Part shown: positions 51,146-64,000 of the stretch, one piece after another
How positions within the stretch are numbered: the stretch's first letter is position 1
Layout: every line of letters starts with the position of its first letter
Assembly (NCBI GenBank): GCA_934466475.1
Contig: CAKSLI010000004.1
Coordinates: 110,656 to 174,655 of the forward strand
Direction: 5' to 3'
Length of the DNA stretch: 64,000 bases
Source: an uncultured Oscillospiraceae bacterium
Lineage (GTDB): Bacteria; Bacillota; Clostridia; Oscillospirales; Ruminococcaceae
Program-made: the position numbers and the translations under genes
Notes under the pieces: model-generated
Seen by the model: the letters and a program-made list of their open reading frames with translations, nothing else
What the model was told of the DNA's origin: nothing
Database searches by the model: none

Positions 51146-51463
51146 ATGGCAGATAAACCAGCGTTTGAGAAGATATACGATGTTGTGCGGAGGATACCGC
51201 GCGGCAAAGTCGCGACCTACGGGCAGATAGCGATACTGGCGGGGAATCCGCGGTGGGCAAGGGCAGTAGGCTATGCGCTTCACGCGAATCCTGAGCCGGG
51301 AGTGATCCCATGTCACCGGGTGCTCAACCGGTTCGGCGGAACGGCTCCGGCGTTCGCATTCGGCGGTGCGGACAGGCAGGCGGAGCTGCTCCGGGCTGAG
51401 GGAGTGGAGGTCTCCGCGGACGGTTTTGTTGATCTGGACAGATTCCTTTGGGACGGACTTTGA
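51146..51463 (+). CDS. MGMT-family alkyltransferase-like protein
   Basis: A 105-residue protein with only the C-terminal DNA-binding and active-site domain of O6-alkylguanine transferases: VVRRIPRGKVATYGQIA, RAVGYALHANP and the active-site VIPCHRVLNR. The reactive Cys is present (alkyltransferase-like proteins have Trp there), so alkyl transfer is possible. The N-terminal domain of full enzymes is absent. ATG 51146 follows AAAGGAG. Confidence 0.87.
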   Translation: MADKPAFEKIYDVVRRIPRGKVATYGQIAILAGNPRWARAVGYALHANPEPGVIPCHRVLNRFGGTAPAFAFGGADRQAELLRAEGVEVSADGFVDLDRFLWDGL

Positions 51464-51476
51464 CAGGAGGTGCGAT

Positions 51477-51611
51477 ATGGTAAAGGAAATAATCAAGCTG
51501 GCTTCCAGCCTTGCGATCCTTGCGGCTGTTGTGGTCGGCGTTAAGTACGCTGACAAGCTCGTAAAGGAGATAAAGGGCGAGAGCGGGGACGAGGACATCA
51601 TCGACATTTGA
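51477..51611 (+). CDS. Tiny single-span membrane protein (44 residues)
   Basis: Begins MVKEIIKLASSLAILAAVVVG with a hydrophobic helix, then an amphipathic Lys-rich part (KYADKLVKEIKGE) and an acidic end (DEDIIDI). AGGAGG is ideally placed before ATG 51477, only 13 bp after the alkyltransferase-like gene. The helix is short. It has no recognisable family and could be a small membrane regulator. Confidence 0.65.
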   Translation: MVKEIIKLASSLAILAAVVVGVKYADKLVKEIKGESGDEDIIDI

Positions 51612-51622
51612 TTTTTTCGTTC

Positions 51623-51651
51623 TTTACAAATCCGGTTCTATATGGTATAAT
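51623..51651 (+). promoter_or_regulatory. Promoter of the CapA-fusion / pilus operon
   Basis: TTTACA (51623-51628), 17 bp, TATAAT (51646-51651). The next gene starts 30 bp downstream behind GGGAGG. I see no other promoter or terminator until after 62017. Confidence 0.85.
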
Positions 51652-51681: not shown

Positions 51682-53403
51682 ATGTCCGATTTCACGAACA
51701 AGTTAGACGAAAAACTGGCGCTTCTGCGGGAGAGTTTCCTTGACGGCGGGGATTTTTCCGCTCTTCAGGAGCGCTTCGTTCCCGCAATGAAAGCGGGCGG
51801 GGAATACGCCGCGTTCATTTCCGTGTGCGACACCACGGTAAGGGCGTCCGTGCTGCGCGGCCATGGCGGAACTCCCGAGACAGCATGGAACAGCGCCTGC
51901 CGCGCCGCAATGGAGTACGTCCGGAAATCCGGGATACTTCCGGTGTGGGTCAAGGCGGATATCACCTCCGCCAGCGAACGCGTGACTTTCGCGGAGCTTA
52001 TGGAGCAGGTCACGAACAGCCGGAACGAGTTCTTCCGGCGCGGTATCTCCTTTGACGACAGGCTCGAAACCGCTCTCATAGAGGCGGAAATAAACGGAAA
52101 CCGCGTGATAACCTACAAGCAGCACCTCATCGAGCTGAAACGCGTGAACAAGTACCTTGCCGCCTGCGGGCTCAAGACCCTCCAGGAATTTCCGGAGCAG
52201 GTCACGCTGTTCGACTGCGAGAGCCGCTTCTGCGGGGAAAACAACGATGTACATAAGCTCTACGGCAGCGGGAACAACTGCGGCAGACGCATTACGGAGA
52301 GCTTTGACGACAAGACCGCGCTGGAGGTCATCAGGACCTCGTCGGAGTACCTGTCCATGCAGGTCGCAATGAACGGAAAGTTCGACTATGGATATTATCC
52401 GATATTCCACAAGGAGATACCAGGGTACAACATTCAGCGCCATGCCTCGTCAATATGGAGCCTGATATGCGCCTACCGCCTTACGGGTGACAAGTTCACG
52501 CTGAACCAGATAGAAAAGGCAGTGGGCTTTATGGTTGCGAATACGTTCAAGAAGTACCCGGACCGTGACGGCGAGGACAACACCGTGTACCTTGCGGATC
52601 TCCAGCTGAACGAGGTGAAGCTCGGCGGAAACGCGCTTGCTGTCATAATGCTGACGGAGTACATGGACGCGACAGGCTCGCAGAGGTATGTGAAGCTCTG
52701 CCGGGAGCTGGGCAACGGGCTCATGGAGCTGTTTGATTCCCGCTGCGGAAGATTCTTCCATGTGCTGAATTATCCGTCGCTTTCCCCGAAGGATCAGTTC
52801 CGCACCGTGTATTACGACGGCGAGGCAACTTTTGCGCTGTGCCGGCTCTATGGGCTCACCAAGGACAAAAAGTGGCTGGACGCGGCGGCAATGGCGGCGG
52901 ACAGATTCATACGCAAGGGCTACGAGCAGTACCGCGACCACTGGGTCGCCTATGCGATGAACGAGCTCACGAAATATCTCCCGGAGGATAAATACCTGAG
53001 CTTCGGCCTGAAAAACGCAGACGTGAACCTCGACAGGATATATAACCAGGACACGACCTACCACACCTATCTGGAGCTGCTCTGCGTGACGTTTGAGCTG
53101 TACAGCCGGGTAACTGAGCAGGGGCTTCCATGCCGGTATCTGGAGGAATTTCACACGGAGAAGTTCATCAGGACGATATACCACCGCGCGGACTATATGC
53201 TCAACGGCTACGGCTACCCGGAGTATGTCATGTACCTGAAGTACCCGAATATGTCGCTGGGAGCTTTTTTCGTGCGGCATGACGGTTACAGGATAAGAAT
53301 AGACGACATTCAGCATTTCTGCGGCGCCTATTATTCTTTCTACCGGAATTACGGTAAGCTTGAGGCGCTCCGCACATCTTTTGAACATAAGCGAGAGGAC
53401 TAA
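51682..53403 (+). CDS. Unrecognised helical (alpha/alpha-toroid-like) protein
   Basis: A 573-residue protein without signal peptide or membrane helix. Residues 1-150 form an alpha/beta region with TTVRASVLRGHGGTPETAWNSACRAA and WVKADI. From about 230 to 560 there is a regular helical pattern with aromatic turn motifs (YNIQRHASSIWSLICAYRL, YYDGEATFALCRLYGL, HWVAYAMNELTKYL, TTYHTYLELLCV), like six-hairpin glycosidase or epimerase folds. No catalytic signature that I can name. It ends 5 bp before the giant CapA fusion, so the two are co-translated partners; a role in an envelope polymer is inferred. Confidence 0.75.
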   Translation: MSDFTNKLDEKLALLRESFLDGGDFSALQERFVPAMKAGGEYAAFISVCDTTVRASVLRGHGGTPETAWNSACRAAMEYVRKSGILPVWVKADITSASERVTFAELMEQVTNSRNEFFRRGISFDDRLETALIEAEINGNRVITYKQHLIELKRVNKYLAACGLKTLQEFPEQVTLFDCESRFCGENNDVHKLYGSGNNCGRRITESFDDKTALEVIRTSSEYLSMQVAMNGKFDYGYYPIFHKEIPGYNIQRHASSIWSLICAYRLTGDKFTLNQIEKAVGFMVANTFKKYPDRDGEDNTVYLADLQLNEVKLGGNALAVIMLTEYMDATGSQRYVKLCRELGNGLMELFDSRCGRFFHVLNYPSLSPKDQFRTVYYDGEATFALCRLYGLTKDKKWLDAAAMAADRFIRKGYEQYRDHWVAYAMNELTKYLPEDKYLSFGLKNADVNLDRIYNQDTTYHTYLELLCVTFELYSRVTEQGLPCRYLEEFHTEKFIRTIYHRADYMLNGYGYPEYVMYLKYPNMSLGAFFVRHDGYRIRIDDIQHFCGAYYSFYRNYGKLEALRTSFEHKRED

Positions 53404-53408
53404 CGGCA

Positions 53409-56400
53409 ATGGCACCAATTCTTAGAGCACCAGAGGGATTTTCAGCCACAGGCAGGGACGGCAGCGCATTTATGAAGTGGAATCCGGTTCCCGGCGCGGC
53501 AGGCTACCGGCTGTTCTTTTACAGCGCTGACGCTCCGGAGATCCTGATAAAATCGCGCTATGCGCAGGGAACAAGCAAGGGCATCCTCGGCTTCACGAAC
53601 AAGCGGGAGTACCTTGTGGAGATATGCGCGTTTACTGTAAAGGACGGCAAGGAGGTGCTGGGTCAGCGCTCGGAGAAAAAACGCTTCACGCCCCATGTGC
53701 TCCGGCTGAAAGCACAGCGCGTGCTCTGCCTGAAGCGCGGCGAAAGCGGTCAGATATCCTGGGAATCCGCAATGGGAATGCCGCCTGTGTCATTTTCCTG
53801 CGACAATCCCGCGGTGGCTTCCGTGGACAGCATGGGCACTGTTACGGCGAAGTCCCGCGGTACCGCGAACATCACGCTGACCTCTCTCAACGACAGCCAG
53901 ACCTTTGTGACGAAGATAGCCGTGGACAGAAACCACTCCTGCGCGGAAAAACGCGCCGTCATGATGTTCACCGGAGACCTCATGTGCACGGCGAAGCAGC
54001 AGCGCGCCGCGGCGAAGCACGGGTTCGATTTCCATGACACGTTCCGCCAGCTGCGGGAGATACTCTCCGGCGCGGATTTCTCAGCGGGAGTGCTGGAGAC
54101 CGTCTGCTGCGACACGCAGCCCTACGAGTACGAGCAGCTCCGCCTGGAGGGAGGCTCTCCCAACTGCAACACGCCGACTTCCTTTGCGGCGGCGGCAGCC
54201 TATGCGGGCTTTGACGCGATGATAACCGCCAACAACCACAGCTGCGACTGCGGAATGGCGGGACTGACATCCACGGCTGACGCGGTAAGGCGCTGCGGCA
54301 TGAAAAATATCGGCACCCTCGGCGACGACCCGGTTATTGTCGATGTCAGGGGCATTCGTGTGGCGATCCTTGCCTGTACGATGATATCCAACGGGACTGA
54401 GGGGCTTGTCGGGGTTTCCGGAGCTAATCCCAACGGAGCGTACAGCCGCGAGTATTTCACGGAGATGGTGAACTACGCCAGGAGCATGGGCGCGGAATAC
54501 ATAGTCGCATATATGCACTGGGGCGCGATGAACACCCCGCGTCTGAGAAAGCATCAGCTTGAGGAAGCTAAGTTCCTTGCGGACGCAGGCGCCGACCTTA
54601 TAGTCGGCTCCCACCCGCACCTTGTGCAGAGATTCAGCTGGATAGGCGCTGCGGACGGCAGGCGCGTTCCCTGCGCGTTTTCCCTGGGAAACATGCTCAG
54701 CGCGATGTCCGAGATAGACGGAAACCGCGACGGCGTGGTGCTCCGCGCGGAGCTCCGCCGGGAGAACGGCGCGATACTCACCAGGGTATCCTACATTCCA
54801 TGCATGACGGAGGACAGGAGCTGGGGCTATGAGATAGTTCCGGTGTTCCCGCCGCATAACAGCGAGAGCACGGCTTCATTCGAGCGCACAAAATCGGTGC
54901 TCGGAACTGGAATAAACCACTTCGAATTCCGACCGCTGATATTCCTGAGCGGCTCATCACTGCTGAACAGGATCTTTTCCGCCGGGAGGGGCTTCCGTAC
55001 AGACCGCACTGCGCTGCTGCTTTCACAGCTGTCACTAGGCTGCGGAAAGGGCGCTCCGGCTGAAGCAGTGGAAGCGGCAGAGGGCGATGAGCGCCTTAAA
55101 CTCGATCTGGACAAGAACCTGGCGGACGTCATGGGAGAATCCCAGGCGGATTACTGCGCCGTGGACTTCCTGGCTGCCGCCGCTGCCGCCTGCTACAAGC
55201 TGGCGGGCGAGCCGGGGGAGGATCCTGTGTTCTTTACGGGCTCCAAAAGCTTCAAGCGGAGCGCGTTCTACAAGGAGAACAAGGAGCGCTTCTCAAAGAT
55301 AAACCCGCCGTTCGGTGAAACCGTATGGAAGCCGTTGGTGGAGCGCTACGCAGCCCAGGTGCTGCAAGCATTCCCGCCGGAGCGGATAATCCTGTTCAGG
55401 CATACCTTCGGGGCGCATTCCGTAAAGGACAACGAGCTGCGCAACGCCCAGCCGAAAAACAGCATAAACCGCTTCATCCGCGCAATGGAGGACTACTTTA
55501 TCTCCATTGCCTCGCCGCTGGTCGTTGACCTGTCGAAGCACTATTTCTCGGACGCAGACGGCGTCATGGAGTACGAGGACGCATATTACGCGGACGCATA
55601 CAAGGCTGTTGTGAAGCTGACGGATGGCAGCGGGCGCACCTGCGTATCCCTGCCTGATGAAAGCCTGTGGTTCGACAGGGTCATGAAGTACTACCCGAGC
55701 ATGACCGCCCGGGCGTATCAGAGCTGGCTGCTGGACATGGACTGTGCGGCAGACCTGATAATCGCGCACACCTCCGCTGAATTTGCCGGCAGGAACCGCG
55801 AGCGGCTGCTCCGCCTGAAGCATTCGGGCAGCGCCTCGCTCATGTCCGTCAGGGACTTCTTTGTCGGCGACAGCGGCGCCGAGGAAATTATAAAGGCGGC
55901 GGAGATAATACACGCGCTGCTGAACGGTCACATCGACCGCTCCTATGATTTCTTCGAGCCGGCATTCCGCGGACATTACAACATCGTGCGCAGAATGGTA
56001 AGGCTGCTTTCAAACGAGATTGGTGCCTCCGTCAACGAGAACAGCGCCGAGCTCGCTTTCCTGCTGCGCGGAAAAACGCAGATGAAGCGCTACATAAACT
56101 CCCTGAACAGAATGACCCTGGATATCTGGGGAAGCTGCGTTTCCAGGGAATCCGTGAACCGCAGCCGCGGCGCATACATCGGTACGTACATCTTCAAGCA
56201 GTCGCCGCTGCTTGCATTCGACCCGCCCGTGGACGTAAGGCTACCGGAGGGAACGGACGCGTTCTGCGGCAACAAATGGCGCAGGCGAACAATGGAGGAT
56301 TCGTTCCTGAGAAGCGGAGACGCGGACATCAAGGGCAGCGAGTCCCGCTGGATACTGCTGGATTTCTATGACCTGATAAGCCGCATGGCGGAGTACAGGG

Positions 56401-56909
56401 GCGGTCTGTTCGAGATAGACGATTTCATTCTCCGGACGGATTTCTACAAGGGCATTCAGCCGGAGTGCCGGGAGTGCTACCTGTTCGAAAAGCGCGATAT
56501 GAAGTTCTGCTATGAGGTAATGACGCGCTTCGCCAAGATGATACTGGAAAAATACGGCGAGCATATAATACTTATAAAAACCGAGCCGAAAAACATGTAC
56601 ATCGACCTTGACAACAGGCTGAAGCCACTTGAGGACGATGGAATGTTCGAGATAAAGAAGAAATTCATCTCGCTCTGCGAGGAACGCTTCGCGAGCGTTA
56701 CGGGGTGCTATGTCATCGACATATCGAAGCACTTCTATTCCTCTGACAGCTTCCCGCTGGGCGGCGCGCACATCGTGCATTACGAGGATGAATTCTACCG
56801 CCAGACGGGCGAGTATATAACCGAGATAATCGGCGGCAGCAGCCGGCGTGTGTTCAGCACGGTGGACGATAATTACCTGCTGCTGAGAAATCTGAAGCTC
56901 AACAGATAA
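53409..56909 (+). CDS. Giant fusion: Fn3-like, Big2-like, CapA phosphoesterase, two DUF6270-like units
   Basis: A 1166-residue protein. Residues 1-97: fibronectin-III-like (PEGFSATGRDGSAFMKWNPV). Residues 98-175: Big2-like with VASVDSMGTVTAKSRGTANIT. Residues 182-500: CapA/PGA-cap metallophosphoesterase with FTGDLMC, NNHSCDCG, YMHWG, VGSHPHLVQ and FSLGNM, apparently complete. Residues about 510-745 and 905-1150 look like two copies of a DUF6270/SGNH-like unit; both end in a V-[IV]-DLSKHYF-type stretch (VVDLSKHYFSD, VIDISKHFYSS) with a following YED-x2-Y. The second has WGSCVSRESVNRSRG. A helical spacer (745-905) lies between. No signal peptide or membrane helix is seen, unusual for Fn3 and Big2 domains. 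Confidence 0.82.
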   Translation: MAPILRAPEGFSATGRDGSAFMKWNPVPGAAGYRLFFYSADAPEILIKSRYAQGTSKGILGFTNKREYLVEICAFTVKDGKEVLGQRSEKKRFTPHVLRLKAQRVLCLKRGESGQISWESAMGMPPVSFSCDNPAVASVDSMGTVTAKSRGTANITLTSLNDSQTFVTKIAVDRNHSCAEKRAVMMFTGDLMCTAKQQRAAAKHGFDFHDTFRQLREILSGADFSAGVLETVCCDTQPYEYEQLRLEGGSPNCNTPTSFAAAAAYAGFDAMITANNHSCDCGMAGLTSTADAVRRCGMKNIGTLGDDPVIVDVRGIRVAILACTMISNGTEGLVGVSGANPNGAYSREYFTEMVNYARSMGAEYIVAYMHWGAMNTPRLRKHQLEEAKFLADAGADLIVGSHPHLVQRFSWIGAADGRRVPCAFSLGNMLSAMSEIDGNRDGVVLRAELRRENGAILTRVSYIPCMTEDRSWGYEIVPVFPPHNSESTASFERTKSVLGTGINHFEFRPLIFLSGSSLLNRIFSAGRGFRTDRTALLLSQLSLGCGKGAPAEAVEAAEGDERLKLDLDKNLADVMGESQADYCAVDFLAAAAAACYKLAGEPGEDPVFFTGSKSFKRSAFYKENKERFSKINPPFGETVWKPLVERYAAQVLQAFPPERIILFRHTFGAHSVKDNELRNAQPKNSINRFIRAMEDYFISIASPLVVDLSKHYFSDADGVMEYEDAYYADAYKAVVKLTDGSGRTCVSLPDESLWFDRVMKYYPSMTARAYQSWLLDMDCAADLIIAHTSAEFAGRNRERLLRLKHSGSASLMSVRDFFVGDSGAEEIIKAAEIIHALLNGHIDRSYDFFEPAFRGHYNIVRRMVRLLSNEIGASVNENSAELAFLLRGKTQMKRYINSLNRMTLDIWGSCVSRESVNRSRGAYIGTYIFKQSPLLAFDPPVDVRLPEGTDAFCGNKWRRRTMEDSFLRSGDADIKGSESRWILLDFYDLISRMAEYRGGLFEIDDFILRTDFYKGIQPECRECYLFEKRDMKFCYEVMTRFAKMILEKYGEHIILIKTEPKNMYIDLDNRLKPLEDDGMFEIKKKFISLCEERFASVTGCYVIDISKHFYSSDSFPLGGAHIVHYEDEFYRQTGEYITEIIGGSSRRVFSTVDDNYLLLRNLKLNR

Positions 56910-56941
56910 ACTGAATGTGATTCCGGAGAGGGGGTGCTTCC

Positions 56942-58177
56942 GTGGACAACCGAATGAAACGGCGCAGTATTGCGCTCCTGTTGGCGACAGTCCTGCTTTC
57001 CGGCTGTAATACGGGGACGCCGCCGGTTTCGCCAGCTGAGCCGACAGCGGAGGTCGTACAGACTTCCTCCGCGGGCACGGACCAGCCGGCAGCAGAGCCA
57101 CTGGAGCCCACCCGTGAGCCGGAGATATCCTCTGAAGAACCTCCGGAAACCGCAGAGCATACCTTACAGGCTGAACCCGGTTCCGCAGAGGAAACGGCTG
57201 AACAGACGGTGCAGGCGGCGTCCCAGGAAAATTCCGGGACTCCGGAAACAGAGGCGGAGCCGGAGCCTCCCGCGCAGACCACTGCTCCGCATACCGAGGC
57301 TCCGCCGCAGACTACTGCAACGACTGTACAGACGACCGCTCCTCCCGCAGAGCCGGCAAAGGTGGTCATTCCCGATGTGCTGGTACCGCTGTCGCCTGGC
57401 ACGGAAACCGTTGCCGAGGGCGCTGCCGTTGTGGATTACAGCAATTCCTCGGACGGATATATTTCGGTCTGCTGGACGGATTCCGGCAAGCGCGTGAAGC
57501 TGCGGCTCACCTGCGGCGACAAGGTTTATGACCATGATGTAACGGGCGGCGGCGCAACGGACTACTTCCCGATATCCTGCGGCAGCGGGAGCTACACCGT
57601 CCAGATATACGAGCAGACCGAGGGCAACAAGTACCGCAAGGCTCTGGAGCACCAGATAAATGTGAATCTGAAAAGCGATGTCTTGCCTTTCCTGTACCCC
57701 AACAAATATGTGAGCTTCACGAAAAAGTCCGGCTGCGTGCGCAAGGCGGCTGAGCTCTGCGCCGGAAAGACTGACGAGATAGAGAAGCTGGCGGCGATAT
57801 TCCAGTGGATAACCGACAATGTGACCTACGACAGACAGCTTGCGGCGACAGTGCAGAGCGGCTACTGTCCCGACCCTGACAAGACCCTCGGCAGGAAAAC
57901 CGGGATATGCTTCGACTATGCGTCGCTTATGGCGGCAATGGCGCGCTCGCAGGATATCCCGACAAGGCTGGTGGTGGGCTACGCCAAGGACAACATCTAT
58001 CATGCCTGGAATGAGGTATACACCAGCGAGACCGGCTGGATAACCCCGGAGCTGCTGCTCTCAAGGCGCGGCTACAACATTACTGACGCGACATTCTATG
58101 CCGGCTCCTCCGACAAGGAGAAGATAGCGGCTTATATATCTGACGGCGGGAATTATTCCGCGCTGTATTACTATTGA
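56942..58177 (+). CDS. Lipoprotein with transglutaminase-like domain
   Basis: A 411-residue surface lipoprotein. Signal peptide with lipobox LLSGC (Cys at about 23), a Pro/Thr/Glu-rich stalk (about 25-135), a beta domain (about 140-245) and a C-terminal transglutaminase-core domain. The catalytic Cys is residue 323 (KTGICFDYA) and His 354 (YHAWNEV). The third residue is normally Asp in a W-x3-D motif; here the segment is WITPE, so Glu replaces it. It could be a protease or crosslinking enzyme, or inactive. GTG start at 56942 behind GGAGAGGGGG. Confidence 0.85.
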   Translation: MDNRMKRRSIALLLATVLLSGCNTGTPPVSPAEPTAEVVQTSSAGTDQPAAEPLEPTREPEISSEEPPETAEHTLQAEPGSAEETAEQTVQAASQENSGTPETEAEPEPPAQTTAPHTEAPPQTTATTVQTTAPPAEPAKVVIPDVLVPLSPGTETVAEGAAVVDYSNSSDGYISVCWTDSGKRVKLRLTCGDKVYDHDVTGGGATDYFPISCGSGSYTVQIYEQTEGNKYRKALEHQINVNLKSDVLPFLYPNKYVSFTKKSGCVRKAAELCAGKTDEIEKLAAIFQWITDNVTYDRQLAATVQSGYCPDPDKTLGRKTGICFDYASLMAAMARSQDIPTRLVVGYAKDNIYHAWNEVYTSETGWITPELLLSRRGYNITDATFYAGSSDKEKIAAYISDGGNYSALYYY

Positions 58178-58192
58178 CCCGGAGGTGCAGAA

Positions 58193-59242
58193 ATGCGTAA
58201 TAAAAGGCTGAACTATGCGCAGGTTGAGTTCCTGTGCGAACAGCTGGCGATGATACTGGGCTCTGGCATGAGCATTCCGGACGGACTGACTCTGCTTTGC
58301 AGCGATACCGGGGACAGGCAGCTGACTGAAGTGTGCCGGGCGATAGCCTCGGAAACTGAAAAGGGAACCCCTCTCTCGCAGGCGGTCAGGGACACAGGCT
58401 GTTTCCCGGATTATGCAGCGGATATGATAGCCCTCGGCGAGCTCAGCGGAAAGCTGGAGGAGGTGCTCCGCGGGCTTTCCGAGTACTACGAGGAGCGCGA
58501 TGATATCCGCAGGATGCTGCGTTCCGCCGTGCTTCACCCTATGGTGCTGCTGCTTATGATGACGGTGGTTATAATCGTGCTGGTGCTCGTGGTCATCCCG
58601 ATGTTCGGGGATATCTTCTCGCAGTTCGACAGCTCCGTTGGCGCGACTGTCCAGAAAACGATAGACCTGGCATATAATTCCGGAATCATAATCATGATAG
58701 TGCTTCTGGCGATAATCGCGGTTTCCGCCGTGACAGCGCTGCTTTCGCAGGTAAAGAAGACCGGTGGCGTGCTGCGCAGATTCGCGGCGGCATTCCCGCT
58801 CACCAGAGGCATTTCGGAGAAACTCTCGCTCGCAGAGCTGACCCGTGCGATATGCATAACCGTATCTGCGGGCGTGTCTCCTGCGGAAATGCTGACGCAC
58901 GCGGACCTGCGCAGCTTCATCAGGGACAGGCGTCTCGCGGCGAAGTTCAGCGAGTGCGAAAAGCGCGTGTTTGACGGCGAGGGATTCCCGCAGGCTATCG
59001 AGGAGAGCGGAATGCTCCCGCCGCTGTATGCGCGTTCGCTGAGGCTCGCGTATGATTCCGGCAGGTTTGAGGAGGTCTGGAAGAAGATAAGCGACGCGTA
59101 CAGCGAAGAAGCCTCCCGCAGCCTTGTGAACATTACGGCTGTGATAGAGCCTGCGATAATCGTGATACTCGGCGTGCTCATCGGAGCGATACTGCTTATG
59201 CTTATGGTACCGCTGATGAACATTATGTCTGTACTGGGGTGA
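58193..59242 (+). CDS. Type II secretion/type IV pilus inner-membrane platform protein (PilC/GspF family)
   Basis: A 349-residue protein with two T2SSF domains. The first (about 10-130) has MILGSGMSIPDGLTLL, then two membrane segments around 117-140 and 160-185. The second (about 205-330) has LAELTRAICITVSAGVSPAEMLTHA and ends with a membrane helix, IVILGVLIGAILLMLMVPLMNI. It is the platform of pilus assembly. No PilB extension ATPase is in the window, but PilT-like is downstream. Confidence 0.9.
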   Translation: MRNKRLNYAQVEFLCEQLAMILGSGMSIPDGLTLLCSDTGDRQLTEVCRAIASETEKGTPLSQAVRDTGCFPDYAADMIALGELSGKLEEVLRGLSEYYEERDDIRRMLRSAVLHPMVLLLMMTVVIIVLVLVVIPMFGDIFSQFDSSVGATVQKTIDLAYNSGIIIMIVLLAIIAVSAVTALLSQVKKTGGVLRRFAAAFPLTRGISEKLSLAELTRAICITVSAGVSPAEMLTHADLRSFIRDRRLAAKFSECEKRVFDGEGFPQAIEESGMLPPLYARSLRLAYDSGRFEEVWKKISDAYSEEASRSLVNITAVIEPAIIVILGVLIGAILLMLMVPLMNIMSVLG

Positions 59243-59568
59243 GCGCAATGAAGAGGTCGGAAAGGTTCAGGGCGGTTCTGCCGGGTATCTTGGGGATACT
59301 GCTGTTCGCCGCAATGACCGTGTGGCTGATAGCCGCGCTGGGCAGCGCCTCCGCAGCGACAGAAGGGGAGCGCCTAGAGCAGGTAAGGCAGTCGGTGGAG
59401 AACGGCATAACCCTGTGCTACGCAGTGGAGGGCGCCTATCCTGAGAATCTGGAGCACCTGACGGAAAATTACGGCGTGGTCATAAACGAGGAGAAATACC
59501 TGGTGCATTACGAGTGCTTTGCGGCGAACGTCCGCCCGACAGTCACCGTGATACGGAGGGAGAATTGA
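59239..59568 (+). CDS. Small pilin-like membrane protein (1)
   Basis: A 109-residue protein with one N-terminal membrane helix (about 15-36) and a short outer domain with GITLCYAVEGAYPENLEHLTENYG, similar in layout to minor pseudopilins that sense segment length. No classical prepilin peptidase site (G-FxxxE) is present. The ATG at 59248 is the more likely start than the overlapping GTG at 59239. Part of the pilus block. Confidence 0.65.
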   Translation: MSAMKRSERFRAVLPGILGILLFAAMTVWLIAALGSASAATEGERLEQVRQSVENGITLCYAVEGAYPENLEHLTENYGVVINEEKYLVHYECFAANVRPTVTVIRREN

Positions 59569-59569
59569 T

Positions 59570-60025
59570 ATGGCAGGCAGAAGGATCCCGGACAGCCGCG
59601 GGCGTACTATGGCTGATACCGCCTCGGCGGTGGGGAGTATGCTGCTTTTCGTGCTGTTCGCGATATGCATGCTTATGGCAGTGGCGGTCGCTGCGGATAC
59701 ATACGGCCGTATAAAGAACGGCTATCAGCAGTCGCTGGGCACGGCGGCTTCGATGAAATACGTTTCCAACAAGCTGCGCTCGGCGGACAGCGTGACCCTG
59801 CTCGACAGCGGGGCGGCGGTGGAGAACGGCGGCATGATCAGCGTGATATACTGCGACGGCGGACTGTATGAGAAAAGCGCGGCGTCAGGGGACGATATAT
59901 CCCCGTCAGGCGGCGACAGGATATCCGATATTGATTCCATGAGCATAACGGAGCATGACGGACTGTATGAGATAACGGTAGTCAGCGGGGGACAGACGTC
60001 CTCGATGCTGGTGCGGAAAGGGTGA
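59570..60025 (+). CDS. DUF4860-like pilin-type protein (2)
   Basis: A 151-residue protein with a hydrophilic start, then RTMADTASAVGSMLLFVLFAICMLMAVAVAADTYGRI, a membrane helix preceded by a Met-Ala-Asp-Thr motif, and a small beta-rich outer domain. It resembles DUF4860 proteins that occur with type IV pilus genes in clostridia. It starts one base after the previous stop. Confidence 0.7.
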   Translation: MAGRRIPDSRGRTMADTASAVGSMLLFVLFAICMLMAVAVAADTYGRIKNGYQQSLGTAASMKYVSNKLRSADSVTLLDSGAAVENGGMISVIYCDGGLYEKSAASGDDISPSGGDRISDIDSMSITEHDGLYEITVVSGGQTSSMLVRKG

Positions 60026-60468
60026 GAGAACTGAAGGCTTACAGGAAGACCAACCACCTGCTGTTTGCTGAGATGGTGACGGCTCTGCTGTTCTTCATCA
60101 TCTCGTTTGCGGTTATAATTCGTATATTCGCGGCAGCGGACGGTATGGAACGCCGCGGTCGCCGCCGCGAGCAGGCTTCACTGTGCGCGCAGTCGATAGC
60201 GGAGGCATATTCCGTGAGCGGAGACGCCGGCAGGGCTCTGGAGCTGGTTTTCGGGGACTCTTTCAGCGAATGCTCCGAGATAGGACTGGACGGCTCCATG
60301 AAGCCGTCGGCTCAGCCGGAGATCACGCTCAGCCTTTCAGAGGAGCGGCGCGGGCTTCCGGCGGGGGAGTACTCCCGGCTTTCTATCAGCTTCACCGATG
60401 ACGCAGGGGAGATCTACTCGCTGGAATGCGCCGCGTATATCCCGGAGGGAGGTGCCGCAGTTGGATAA
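60022..60468 (+). CDS. Pilin-like membrane protein (3)
   Basis: A 148-residue protein with LLFAEMVTALLFFIISFAVIIRIFAAAD, a membrane helix with the Glu near its start as in type IV pilins, and an outer domain. The leader is short and basic (MRELKAYRKTNH). GTG start overlaps the preceding stop. No glycine-cleavage motif is obvious, which makes processing uncertain. Confidence 0.65.
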   Translation: MRELKAYRKTNHLLFAEMVTALLFFIISFAVIIRIFAAADGMERRGRRREQASLCAQSIAEAYSVSGDAGRALELVFGDSFSECSEIGLDGSMKPSAQPEITLSLSEERRGLPAGEYSRLSISFTDDAGEIYSLECAAYIPEGGAAVG

Positions 60469-60946
60469 GAAAACAAGATTCGGCGGCACGGTCGGCGTGG
60501 GCTACGTTTCGATAATGCTGATATTTACCGTGATCTGCCTGACCATATTCGCGGTGCTGAGCTTCCAGGCGGCGTATTCCGACAGCAGTCTCATCGACCG
60601 CAGCGAGAGCTTCACTCAGCAGTACTATACAGCGGATTCCAGGGCAAAGGAGATACTGGCGGAGCTTGACAGCGCGGCGCTGGAGGCGTCGCAGGCGCTG
60701 GACTTCGCGGAGGAGTTCGCCGGGGCTGCTTCGCAGACGGAGGGAGTCTCTGCCGTTGAGGCGCCCGGCGGCGTGAGAGTGGATTATTCGGTGGAAATGG
60801 ACGCGGGACGGCGGCTTTCCGTCAGCGTGATGTTTTACGCCGGCAGGCAGGACGAAAGGTACACAGTGCTCAGCTGGCAGAGCATAACGAGCTACACAGG
60901 GGACGAGGGTCACCAGAATGTCTGGGACGGCGGAGACCTGGCATGA
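60461..60946 (+). CDS. Pilin-like membrane protein (4)
   Basis: A 161-residue protein with RFGGTVGVGYVSIMLIFTVICLTIFAVLSFQAAYSD at the start, one helix and an outer helical/beta domain. The TTG at 60461 is chosen because GGAGGGAGG is just before it. An ATG 21 codons upstream would lie inside the previous gene. The layout fits a minor pilin; no family assigned with certainty. Confidence 0.65.
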   Translation: MDKKTRFGGTVGVGYVSIMLIFTVICLTIFAVLSFQAAYSDSSLIDRSESFTQQYYTADSRAKEILAELDSAALEASQALDFAEEFAGAASQTEGVSAVEAPGGVRVDYSVEMDAGRRLSVSVMFYAGRQDERYTVLSWQSITSYTGDEGHQNVWDGGDLA

Positions 60947-60964
60947 TGAAAGGTGAGGTTGCAG

Positions 60965-62017
60965 ATGGATATTCTTGATATACTCAGGACGGCGGCGGAA
61001 AACCAGGCGGCGGATATTTTCATAGTTTCAGGAGCGGCGCTGAGCTACAAGGCGCAGGGCAGAATGTACCGTATAGACGAGAATCCGCTCAATCCGGACG
61101 ACACCAGGCGGCTGGTGCTCCAGATATTTGCCCTTGCAAAGCTTAATGTGGACGAAAATTCACTTCCGGAGCGTGAAAAGGACTTTTCTCTTTCAGTGGC
61201 AGGCATAGGAAGATTCCGCGCGAATATATATAAGCAGCGCAGCTCCTATTCGGCTGTGCTGAGGTATGTTCCGTTTGAGCTTCCGGACGCGCAGAAGCTC
61301 GGTATACCCGAGCAGGTCATGGAGCTCAGCGAAAGCAGGAGCGGAATAGTCCTCATAACAGGCGTGGCGAGCAGCGGCAAGTCGACTACGCTTTCCTGCA
61401 TACTTAACAGGATCAACCAGACGCGCAGCGGGCATATAATAACAATAGAGGACCCCATTGAGTTCCTGCACAAGCATAACCGCTGCATTGTCAGCCAGCG
61501 CGAAATAAACATTGATACGGACAGCTACATCGACGCGCTGAGGGCGGCGCTGCGCCAGTCCCCGGACGTTATCCTCCTTGGCGAGATGAGAGATTACGAG
61601 ACAATAAGCGTTGCGATGACCGCCGCGGAAACTGGTCAGTTGGTGCTTTCAACGCTGCACACGCTTGGCGCTGCGAATACGATCGACAGAATAATCGACG
61701 TGTTCCCGATAAATCAGCAGCACCAGATCCGCGTGCAGCTTTCCATGGTGCTGAACGCCGTAGTTTCGCAGCAGCTTATCCCTGGGGCTGACGGGGGAAT
61801 GGTGCCCGCATTTGAGATAATGCTTATGAACAGTGCCATTAGGACGCTCATTCGCGATGAAAAGACTCATCAGATTGATACCGTCATTCAGTCATCGCCT
61901 GATATGCAGACAATGGACAGCTGCATTGTCGGAATGTACAAAAAAGGTATAATTACCGCCGAAACCGCTGTTGATTATGCATATAACCCGGAGATCATGC
62001 GCAAAAGGCTTGGCTGA
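60965..62017 (+). CDS. PilT-type retraction ATPase
   Basis: A 350-residue secretion ATPase. An N-terminal PAS-like domain with DIFIVSGAALSYKAQGRM, Walker A GVASSGKSTT, Asp box EDPIEF, Walker B DVILLGEMRD, the His box HTLGAANTIDRIID and the C-terminal QTMDSCIVGMYKKGIIT, which is the AIRNLIRE-type PilT ending (here SAIRTLIRD). It would retract pili. A leading GTG at 60953 is in frame, but ATG 60965 has AAAGGTGAGG at the right distance. Confidence 0.88.
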   Translation: MDILDILRTAAENQAADIFIVSGAALSYKAQGRMYRIDENPLNPDDTRRLVLQIFALAKLNVDENSLPEREKDFSLSVAGIGRFRANIYKQRSSYSAVLRYVPFELPDAQKLGIPEQVMELSESRSGIVLITGVASSGKSTTLSCILNRINQTRSGHIITIEDPIEFLHKHNRCIVSQREINIDTDSYIDALRAALRQSPDVILLGEMRDYETISVAMTAAETGQLVLSTLHTLGAANTIDRIIDVFPINQQHQIRVQLSMVLNAVVSQQLIPGADGGMVPAFEIMLMNSAIRTLIRDEKTHQIDTVIQSSPDMQTMDSCIVGMYKKGIITAETAVDYAYNPEIMRKRLG

Positions 62018-62021
62018 GTTA

Positions 62022-62052
62022 AGGGCAGCTAAAAAAAAAAATGCCTTTTTTT
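62022..62052 (+). terminator. Weak terminator after the pilT-type gene
   Basis: GGCA...TGCC with a run of eleven A before and seven T after; the A and T runs could also pair. It is the first plausible terminator after 51.1 kb. Confidence 0.45.
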
Positions 62053-62062
62053 AACAAAGCAC

Positions 62063-62091
62063 TTGACGGAGGTTATATTTTGTGATATAAT
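62063..62091 (+). promoter_or_regulatory. Promoter of the SD-repeat adhesin
   Basis: TTGACG (62063-62068), 17 bp, TATAAT (62086-62091). The adhesin RBS AAGGAG and ATG follow at 62171-62184. Confidence 0.88.
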
Positions 62092-62183
62092 ATTTAAAAG
62101 AATAATATCCAAGGGATAGCTGTATCCTTTTGTAAAATCAGAAATTATTATCATTTTGCGTGAACCTGATAAGGAGAATTACC

Positions 62184-64000
62184 ATGGACAACAACAAGCG
62201 CAAATCAAAAAATGGCAAGACTGCTTTGATGTTTGCCTTTGCGGTTACGGTACTTGCGTCCCGTGCCACTGCTTTGGCGGCTTCCGCTGCACCAGCAGAT
62301 AATAATGAGCTTGGGATCAATAATAGCGATTCCGAAAAAAGCGGCGGTTCCGAAGCGTTTTATAAAGAGCTTTCACCCAATGTTTATTATCAGCTGAATG
62401 CCGACAGGGCAACCTATAATTTTCTTTCAACGCTTGACAGGATAAGAGATTTCTCTACATACGCCAAAACTGTGACCAATCCTGGTCATTTTGAGGGCAA
62501 CGTATGTGTTGGTTCAGCTATCGACTGCGTAGACCTGTTCAATGACAGATACTGCGAAATCGTCAAGGACGGAAAATATATCTGCTATCTTGCAGAGCCT
62601 CCGAAATACAATGGTAATCCGATCAAGCTCAAGGCTGTAAACGATACTAAATATGAGCTTGTTCTGGGATTTGATTATACCACTTTCACCTGGAACAACG
62701 GAAACAGCATCGGATTTGAGGCACAGGGTGTTAGATATGTCATTGAGAATGATCCATCGACCGTATCAATTCGCGCTTACAATCCGGAGGTCGATTCTTT
62801 CAACGATGTTGACGGAATACTTGACGACCTTGCTTACAACGGCAGTAGGCTCTGTACTGCAACTCAGTTTGACGAGAGCAGGTCTGCGACCGATACGCTG
62901 AACAGCGCGATAAACGCTATGATGTCGGCCGATTCCGGCGAAACTATTTTTGTCAATGTTCATGCAAGGGATTTACAGAACAACGACAGGCTGGTTCAGC
63001 AGCTCCTTACTGATAACAATGGTGTTAAGATCGTTGTCAATGTAATGACCGATGGTATTGACTGGATGAGCTTCGGCAATATCAGCGGAGTGAATTTTAA
63101 TCCGAACTGCGGAAATGTTATATTCAACTTTGGCACATATACCGGTCAGATTTCCATCAGTGAATGCGGGGGGATTATTGTTGCTCCATATGCAACAGTA
63201 AGCAATTCCAGCAATATAAATGGTTCAGTCATTACCAGAACTCTTAACAAGAACGGCGAGATCCATCAGGTAACTAACAATTTCGATGTTCCCGATAATC
63301 CTGATGGAGATACTGATACAGATACGGACACTGATACCGATACCGATACCGACACGGATACCGATACAGATACAGATACAGATACCGACACCGATTCTGA
63401 CACAGACACCGATACCGACACCGACACGGATTCTGATACCGATACAGATTCCGACACGGACACAGATTCCGATACAGACACGGACACTGATTCTGACACG
63501 GACACCGATTCCGACACAGACACTGATTCTGATACGGACACGGATTCTGATAGCGACACGGATTCTGATAGCGACACGGATTCCGACAGCGACACGGATT
63601 CTGATACCGATACGGACACCGATTCCGATACAGACACGGATTCTGACACTGACACGGATTCCGATACCGACACGGATTCTGATACCGATACGGACACCGA
63701 TACCGATACGGATACAGATTCTGACAGTGACACGGATTCTGATACCGACACCGATTCCGACACGGACACCGATTCCGACACGGACACGGATTCCGACACT
63801 GACGCAGATTCTGATAGCGACACGGATTCTGACAGCGACACAGATTCTGATACCGACACAGATTCTGACACGGACACCGATTCCGATACAGACACGGATT
63901 CCGACACGGACACCGATTCCGATACGGACACCGATTCCGACACGGACACGGATTCCGACACTGACGCAGATTCTGATAGCGACACGGATTCTGACAGCGA
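62184..64000 (+). CDS. Choice-of-anchor A surface protein with Asp-Thr/Asp-Ser repeats (3' partial)
   Basis: At least 605 codons, open at the window end. A signal peptide ([20 protein letters not shown], cleaved near ALAAS) precedes a globular region to about residue 370. The parts [41 protein letters not shown] and [16 protein letters not shown] are the choice-of-anchor A pattern, known from cell-surface and ice-binding-like proteins. From residue 376 the protein is only (Asp-Thr/Asp-Ser)n, as in staphylococcal Sdr proteins, where it is a stalk between adhesin and wall anchor. The anchor lies outside the window. The first 1.1 kb has lower GC than the neighbours. Confidence 0.82.
63309..64000 (+). 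repeat. GAYWCN-type hexanucleotide array coding for Asp-Thr/Asp-Ser
   Basis: Over 690 bp to the window end, codons alternate GAY with ACN, TCN or AGC. Early units are Asp-Thr only, later ones mix Asp-Ser and Asp-Thr. One GCA (Ala) interruption occurs in the DAD position near 63804 and again near 63964, suggesting a longer repeated block of about 160 bp. Such arrays vary in length by slippage. Confidence 0.9.

Follow-up and report, generated by a model that had tools for sequence, protein, structure and literature searches.

Organization of the locus

The window, a stretch of 64,000 nucleotides, carries nine ORFs in close succession (51682-62017), all on the + strand. Their coordinates, strand and spacing agree with the original prediction of nine same-strand genes separated by anything from an overlap to 32 bp, the successive intergenic gaps being 5, 32, 15, -4, 1, -4, -71 and 6 bp. 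We refer to the first two genes, g1 and g2, as module A and to the remaining seven (g3-pilC-g5-g6-g7-g8-pilT) as module B. The features of the locus are the following.

Probable operon promoter, 51623..51651, + strand: TTTACA-17-TATAAT with TG before the second hexamer (11/12 matches)
g1, 51682..53403, + strand: leaderless protein with an (alpha/alpha)6 barrel of the cellobiose-2-epimerase/GH76 fold at residues 206-565
g2, 53409..56909, + strand: leaderless fusion of FN3-like, Big_2, CapA (MslH-like) and two tandem DUF6270-like domains
g3, 56942..58177, + strand: lipoprotein with a Pro/Thr/Glu-rich spacer and a transglutaminase-like domain; opens module B
pilC, 58193..59242, + strand: T2SSF platform protein of the module-B type
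g5, 59239..59568, + strand: short single-TM protein, pilin-like from position and layout only
g6, 59570..60025, + strand: single-TM protein, DUF4860-like (24.8 bits against a cut-off of 25)
g7, 60022..60468, + strand: pilin-like protein with Glu at +5 and His at -1 (Asn in most host-genus sequences)
g8, 60398..60946, + strand: single-TM protein, pilin-like from position and layout only
pilT, 60953..62017, + strand: PilT-family ATPase of its own clade, Walker A GxAxxGKS; closes module B
Weak terminator-like hairpin and T run, about 62027..62047, + strand: read by eye, missed by the scan
g10 promoter, 62063..62091, + strand: TTGACG-17-TATAAT
g10, 62160..63998, + strand: surface protein with Asp/Ser/Thr repeats, continuing past the window end

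The sites at 51623-51651 and 62063-62091 were the top two in the promoter scan, and the first of these is the operon promoter originally proposed. The scan total of 12 sites lies within chance expectation (mean 9.4, sd 3.6), and the terminator count, taken alone, is also close to chance. The accompanying claim that no second promoter interrupts the operon depends on the threshold, since weaker sites are present within it, e.g. at 57435-57463 (9/12) and 61926-61953 (10/12). Of 20 distinct loci, the window counted, 12 have a promoter with 11-12/12 matches ahead of gene 1 and 8 lack one; an equally strong one precedes the gene after pilT in 26/27 loci. Most relatives also have little space between the genes of the operon, though outliers occur. 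The run from g2 to the gene after pilT is uninterrupted in 26/36 host-genus genomes (in two of them the start of g2 is cut); the later genes are absent in the remaining 10, of which nine were opened and stop at contig ends and one, G419, was left unopened. This conserved layout adds weight to the operon despite the chance-level promoter counts, and the nine genes form a conserved, predicted operon unit.

Between the operon and an ogt/MGMT-like gene lies a small ORF (51366-51611) that L001, L002 and L004 have conserved. Its likely start is ATG 51478, which would give a membrane protein of 44 residues.

Gene products of module A

Profile searches confirmed the following families: CapA, Big_2, DUF6270, the transglutaminase core, T2SSF/PilC and PilT. 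In structural alignments the g1 barrel shares 10-16% identity with cellobiose 2-epimerase, N-acylglucosamine 2-epimerase and GH76 barrels; unlike these, g1 has an added N-terminal domain.

The CapA (PGA_cap) domain of g2 scores 167.4 bits (Pfam cut-off 27) and keeps its metal ligands: Asp190, His402 and His404 are found in 26/26 sequences, Glu230 and Asn276 in 24/26 and His370 in 23/26. The DUF6270 domain scores 38.5 bits (Pfam cut-off 27.5), and profile comparison places a second DUF6270-like copy upstream of the first (E 7e-9). When the entire g2 protein was used in a structure search, the CapA domain accounted for the matches listed; a profile of the C-terminal part compared with solved chains reached only E 0.07 at best.

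The g2 protein shares the CapA/MslH fold with MslH (PDB 8gq9, 8ith), a lasso-peptide epimerase (PMC10406935). Unlike MslH, it carries fused FN3-like, Big_2 and DUF6270-like domains, and the MslH acid/base residues His277 and Asp280 are each retained in 18/26 g2 sequences. A lasso-peptide cluster, the idea raised by MslH, was dropped because none of the nine genes matches a lasso gene above cut-off; the lasso B2 model reaches 14.5 bits on g3 (cut-off 33).

Poly-gamma-glutamate capsule systems combine a membrane-anchored CapA with CapB/CapC partners, and capsule CapA has an N-terminal signal or anchor, unlike the g2 fusion. Neither g1 nor g2 has an N-terminal signal or anchor, g2 lacks any N-terminal hydrophobic segment, and no CapB/CapC-type partner is encoded among the nine genes. 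A capsule/polyglutamate operon was dropped on these grounds, the absence of a signal in g1 and g2 and of a synthase partner among the nine genes, and the original placing of CapA-type proteins in polymer or capsule systems is not supported for this fusion.

Gene products of module B

The g3 lipoprotein contains the triad Cys323/His354/Asp382 and matches the transglutaminase core at 90 bits (Pfam cut-off 23). Across 52 sequences, conservation of the triad and the lipobox Cys is 97% or higher. By triad and Pfam score, g3 is a predicted transglutaminase-like cysteine enzyme.

PilC matches T2SSF at 146 bits, with PilC of 3jc8 as the top solved match. The counterpart of g6 in the relative L116 matches DUF4860 at 85 bits; as the Pfam model finds matches in only 7/299 phylum-sample genomes, G002 among them, it covers at best part of the range. 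The annotated start of g8 is probably over-long. Relatives start at the position of TTG 60461, the probable true start, and its use would abolish most of the 71-bp overlap with g7.

The pilT product scores 400.8 bits with TIGR01420 (NCBIfam cut-off 319.1) and 134.4 bits with the ComGA model, and contains the motifs GVASSGKS, VILLGEMRD and AIRTLIRD. The curated cut-off and the Walker motifs place this predicted protein among PilT/PilU retraction ATPases.

Two modules united in one genus

The operon consists of two modules, A (51682-56909) and B (56942-62017), that, as judged from gene content across relatives, are united in one genus. We hold this anatomy with high confidence. Outside the genus, 39 loci were opened for module-type PilC (21 plus 18 weaker), and all seven module-B genes occur in order in 35 of them (in L265 and L268 the contig ends within pilT). 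Module B runs into the contig end in L184 and L222, g3 is absent in L257, at a contig end, and truly absent in L266, and some module-B genes of L231 and L233 were detectable only by wider profiles. No g1 or g2 fusion was found near module B in any of the 39 loci, two 18-bit g2 matches in L223 being disregarded.

The lipoprotein gene g3 stands first in module B in 37/39 of these loci. The original prediction had placed it with g1 and g2 in one module, an arrangement that these loci contradict. A special partnership of g3 with g1-g2 is ruled out, as g3 heads module B with or without them, and the nine genes as a single ancient module are likewise ruled out, as modules A and B are separate outside the genus.

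Within the host genus, the operon is present or absent as a whole, as a conserved unit of the kind first proposed. The g2 fusion is carried by 36/43 genomes, and module-B pilC by 33 of these 36; the other three (G003, G418 and G425) stop at contig ends, with a cut pilC visible at the contig end in G418. Of the seven genomes that lack g2, none has module-B pilC (0/7) and all keep main-locus pilC (7/7, one with an internal stop), with the caveat that these are mostly metagenome assemblies, so that any single absence may be an assembly gap. In the family sample, module-type pilC was called in about 104/396 genomes, with scores down to 213 bits, and the border with the module type is soft because main-locus PilC reaches about 213 bits. 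Opening the two lowest-scoring module pilC loci (218 and 213 bits) showed both to be genuine. All 10 g2-bearing genomes of the family sample have module-B pilC, as opposed to about 104/396 overall.

Among the matches listed in the genome scan with g2, many of them generic CapA genes, the fusion is present in 20/78 loci. When the window genes were compared by tblastn with the first 20 fusion loci among the matches listed, 19 showed the same gene order up to the limits of their contigs. In some fusion loci g1 does not adjoin g2, and in L015 g2 stands alone. The absence of g1 from some carriers (G006, G008, G015, G256 and G307) indicates that it is not essential. A tree suggests that g1 was present early and lost later, with the qualification that the label "no g1" is wrong or unsure for L006, which has a g1 end, and for L242 and L250, at contig ends, and that five "lone" rows are CapA paralogues.

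Outside the genus, g2 orthologues were opened in five genomes (38-42% identity, one of only 657 aa). All five lie away from module B, and all five genomes have module-B pilC elsewhere. The g1 gene, found in 11/396 family-sample genomes, directly adjoins a roughly 1220-aa CapA paralogue in all five outside-genus genomes opened for it. The original prediction had named, as a finding that would count against it, homologues of the first three genes that usually lie apart from pilus genes; outside the genus this is the case for g1 and g2 (5/5 opened loci each) and not for g3, and inside the genus it is not the case.

In L172 and L175-L178, where g1 is paired directly with this roughly 1220-aa CapA paralogue, the g2 orthologue is found by itself at another site of the genome. 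The gene immediately preceding g2 encodes a U32 peptidase in L007 (7923-9950, Pfam-checked), L169 and L171, loci that come from both inside and outside the genus.

The separation of modules A and B outside the genus, together with the operons that lack g1, would be expected if the two modules adjoin by an accident of genome history and have no joint function. We consider this very improbable. The modules have stayed adjacent even where g2 identity has fallen to about 46-47%, both modules are jointly absent in 7/43 genomes, and the gaps are short and the promoter position shared.

Prepilin processing sites and missing pilus components

PilB, prepilin peptidase, PilM and a standard pilin are all missing from the nine genes of the window. 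Module B is not a complete pilus operon. A PilB-type ATPase is encoded elsewhere in 17/17 relatives tested, although in L109 PilB is the best family for an ATPase that falls below the equivalog cut-off. The main loci that were opened have their own PilC, PilT and GFTLVE-type pilins; PilM was seen in that of L109 and prepilin peptidase in those of L113 and L115.

According to PMC6916266, prepilins are cleaved after Gly as a rule. Among the pilin-like proteins of module B only g7 has Glu at +5; its residue -1 in the host genus (n=27) is Asn in 24 sequences and His, Ile and Val in one each, with Gly or Ala in 0/27. Outside the genus, Gly (8) or Ala (4) occupies -1 in 12 of 37 scored g7 sequences, in which processing is therefore possible; these sites were placed by an automatic rule and some may be misplaced. 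The standard prepilin pattern (Gly/Ala at -1, Glu at +5) occurs in 1/67 g5, 2/66 g6, 12/66 g7 and 1/64 g8 sequences, and 27 ORFs matched it in six main pilus loci, a match count and not a rate. None of g5-g8 matches the N_methyl domain; one main-locus pilin does. The original description of pilC- and pilT-type genes as building and retracting pili is thus doubtful for module B, which encodes neither an assembly ATPase nor a peptidase nor a standard pilin and whose processing sites are non-standard.

Module B might nevertheless form an independent small pilus or a secretion pseudopilus that borrows PilB and peptidase from the main locus. It has its own PilC and four pilin-like proteins, g7 retains Glu at +5, and sharing of PilB is possible because every tested relative has one. 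We regard such a pilus as improbable, given a cluster that lacks a major pilin and the absence of the standard pilin site in the host genus.

PilT normally retracts pili, which leaves room for a role on the main pilus. The complete type IV pilus encoded elsewhere would then draw on module B for minor pilins, for another platform and for one more retraction ATPase, with g3 trimming or cross-linking pilins and g1-g2 decorating them. The module's PilT is a true PilT by its family assignment, a main locus with PilB is present in 17/17 relatives tested, and PMC4858521 presents archaeal transglutaminase-type peptidases encoded next to type IV pilus genes as presumed pilin processors. Against such a helper role, the host-genus processing sites are non-standard, the main loci that were opened already encode a PilC and a PilT, and 7/43 genomes retain main pilC without module B. 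On balance we find it rather unlikely, though a more serious contender than an independent pilus.

Genes neighboring module B

In 26/26 unbroken loci pilT is followed by g10, a constant part of the neighborhood in spite of its separate promoter, whose long Asp/Ser/Thr repeats resemble those of staphylococcal Sdr/Clf adhesins; its NCBIfam matches involve the repeats only and lie far below cut-off. Among g10 relatives, a wall anchor scores above cut-off in L011 and more weakly in L007 and L012, and the relative in L008 is a pAdhesive_15 protein. L221, a locus outside the genus, likewise has a pAdhesive_15 gene after pilT. SpaA/Cna_B, InlB-repeat, MucBP and VWA surface proteins lie close to the module in further loci, these cases having been chosen by eye, mostly from 15 loci. 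Under a strict rule, a surface protein was found near module B in 3/38 outside-genus loci compared with 2/80 controls, so outside the genus the association with adhesins is weak and no more than suggestive.

A BTAD/SARP-type regulator occurs near module B in 14/38 outside-genus loci and in 0/80 control loci, seven of the 14 being seeds of the profile itself and three having been checked with Pfam. The loci are L116, L224, L225, L227, L228, L229, L232, L233, L235, L258, L259, L260, L268 and L274. No BTAD-type regulator was seen in host-genus loci.

A proposed role for the operon

The observed features of the locus (two modules with their gene order and joint presence or absence, recognizable folds with conserved residues, and missing pilus parts) are best accommodated if module B is an accessory PilC/PilT membrane machine, of the type IV filament superfamily, that serves a neighboring wall adhesin, with the module A enzymes added to it. 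We give this reading a probability of roughly 45%. The PilC platform and the PilT-type motor would act on the four pilin-like membrane proteins, which would mostly escape pilin-type processing; the module likely has no filament of its own. The lipid-anchored, transglutaminase-like g3 would work at the outer face of the membrane, and module B could present, process or cross-link the wall-anchored adhesin next to it, the likely client, here g10. A point against this client is that g10 is under its own promoter. The reading as a whole is also weakened by the Gly or Ala at -1 in some g7 sequences outside the genus, by the weak adhesin association there, by the carriers that lack g1, by the usual pilus-retracting role of PilT and by the likeness of g5 and g8 to pilins in layout only. 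The machine may act alone or together with a complete pilus encoded elsewhere. The cytoplasmic g1 and g2 would modify a sugar or peptide, their likely substrate, for the surface protein or for module B itself.

A more far-reaching version of the accessory-machine reading, which we put forward tentatively and think less probable, is that module B belongs to the type IV filament superfamily yet forms no filament. Its PilT-type motor and PilC platform would drive pilin-like proteins that stay unprocessed and permanently membrane-bound, coupled to an external transglutaminase-like enzyme, so as to mature or cross-link wall-anchored adhesins, and the dedicated pair of sugar- or peptide-modifying enzymes would be an addition by the genus. 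If this were true, PilC and PilT would also drive work other than the assembly or pulling of filaments, such a module would be present in about a quarter of one family's sampled genomes, and the plain annotation of these clusters as "type IV pilus" or "capsule" would need correcting.

Comparison with known systems

The original prediction knew of no described system with this composition, and we likewise found no published description of the bacterial seven-gene module B, or of its union with module A, in the literature searched. The same searches returned no papers for "DUF6270" or "DUF4860"; most subscription papers fall outside their coverage.

The monoderm type IVa pilus, as presented for Streptococcus sanguinis and Ruminococcus flavefaciens in PMC6916266 and PMC3672088, shares PilC, PilT and pilin-like bitopic proteins with module B. 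Unlike that pilus, module B does not encode PilB, a peptidase, PilM or a standard pilin within its cluster, its processing sites are non-standard, and it includes a transglutaminase-like lipoprotein.

Like module B, the ComG competence pilus operon combines a single ATPase and a single platform with a set of small pilin-like genes. Module B differs from ComG in that its ATPase is of the PilT type (400.8 bits versus 134.4 bits for ComGA) and is placed last, and in that it has no ComGC-like pilin.

A precedent for a transglutaminase-type enzyme in such company exists in archaea, where, according to PMC4858521, transglutaminase-type surface peptidases adjoin type IV pilus genes in systems described there as lacking PilT. 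As this pairing is already on record, that of module B is not new in principle. Common to both is a surface cysteine enzyme of the transglutaminase superfamily beside type IV pilus genes; module B differs in being bacterial, in the lipid anchor of its enzyme and in the presence of PilT.
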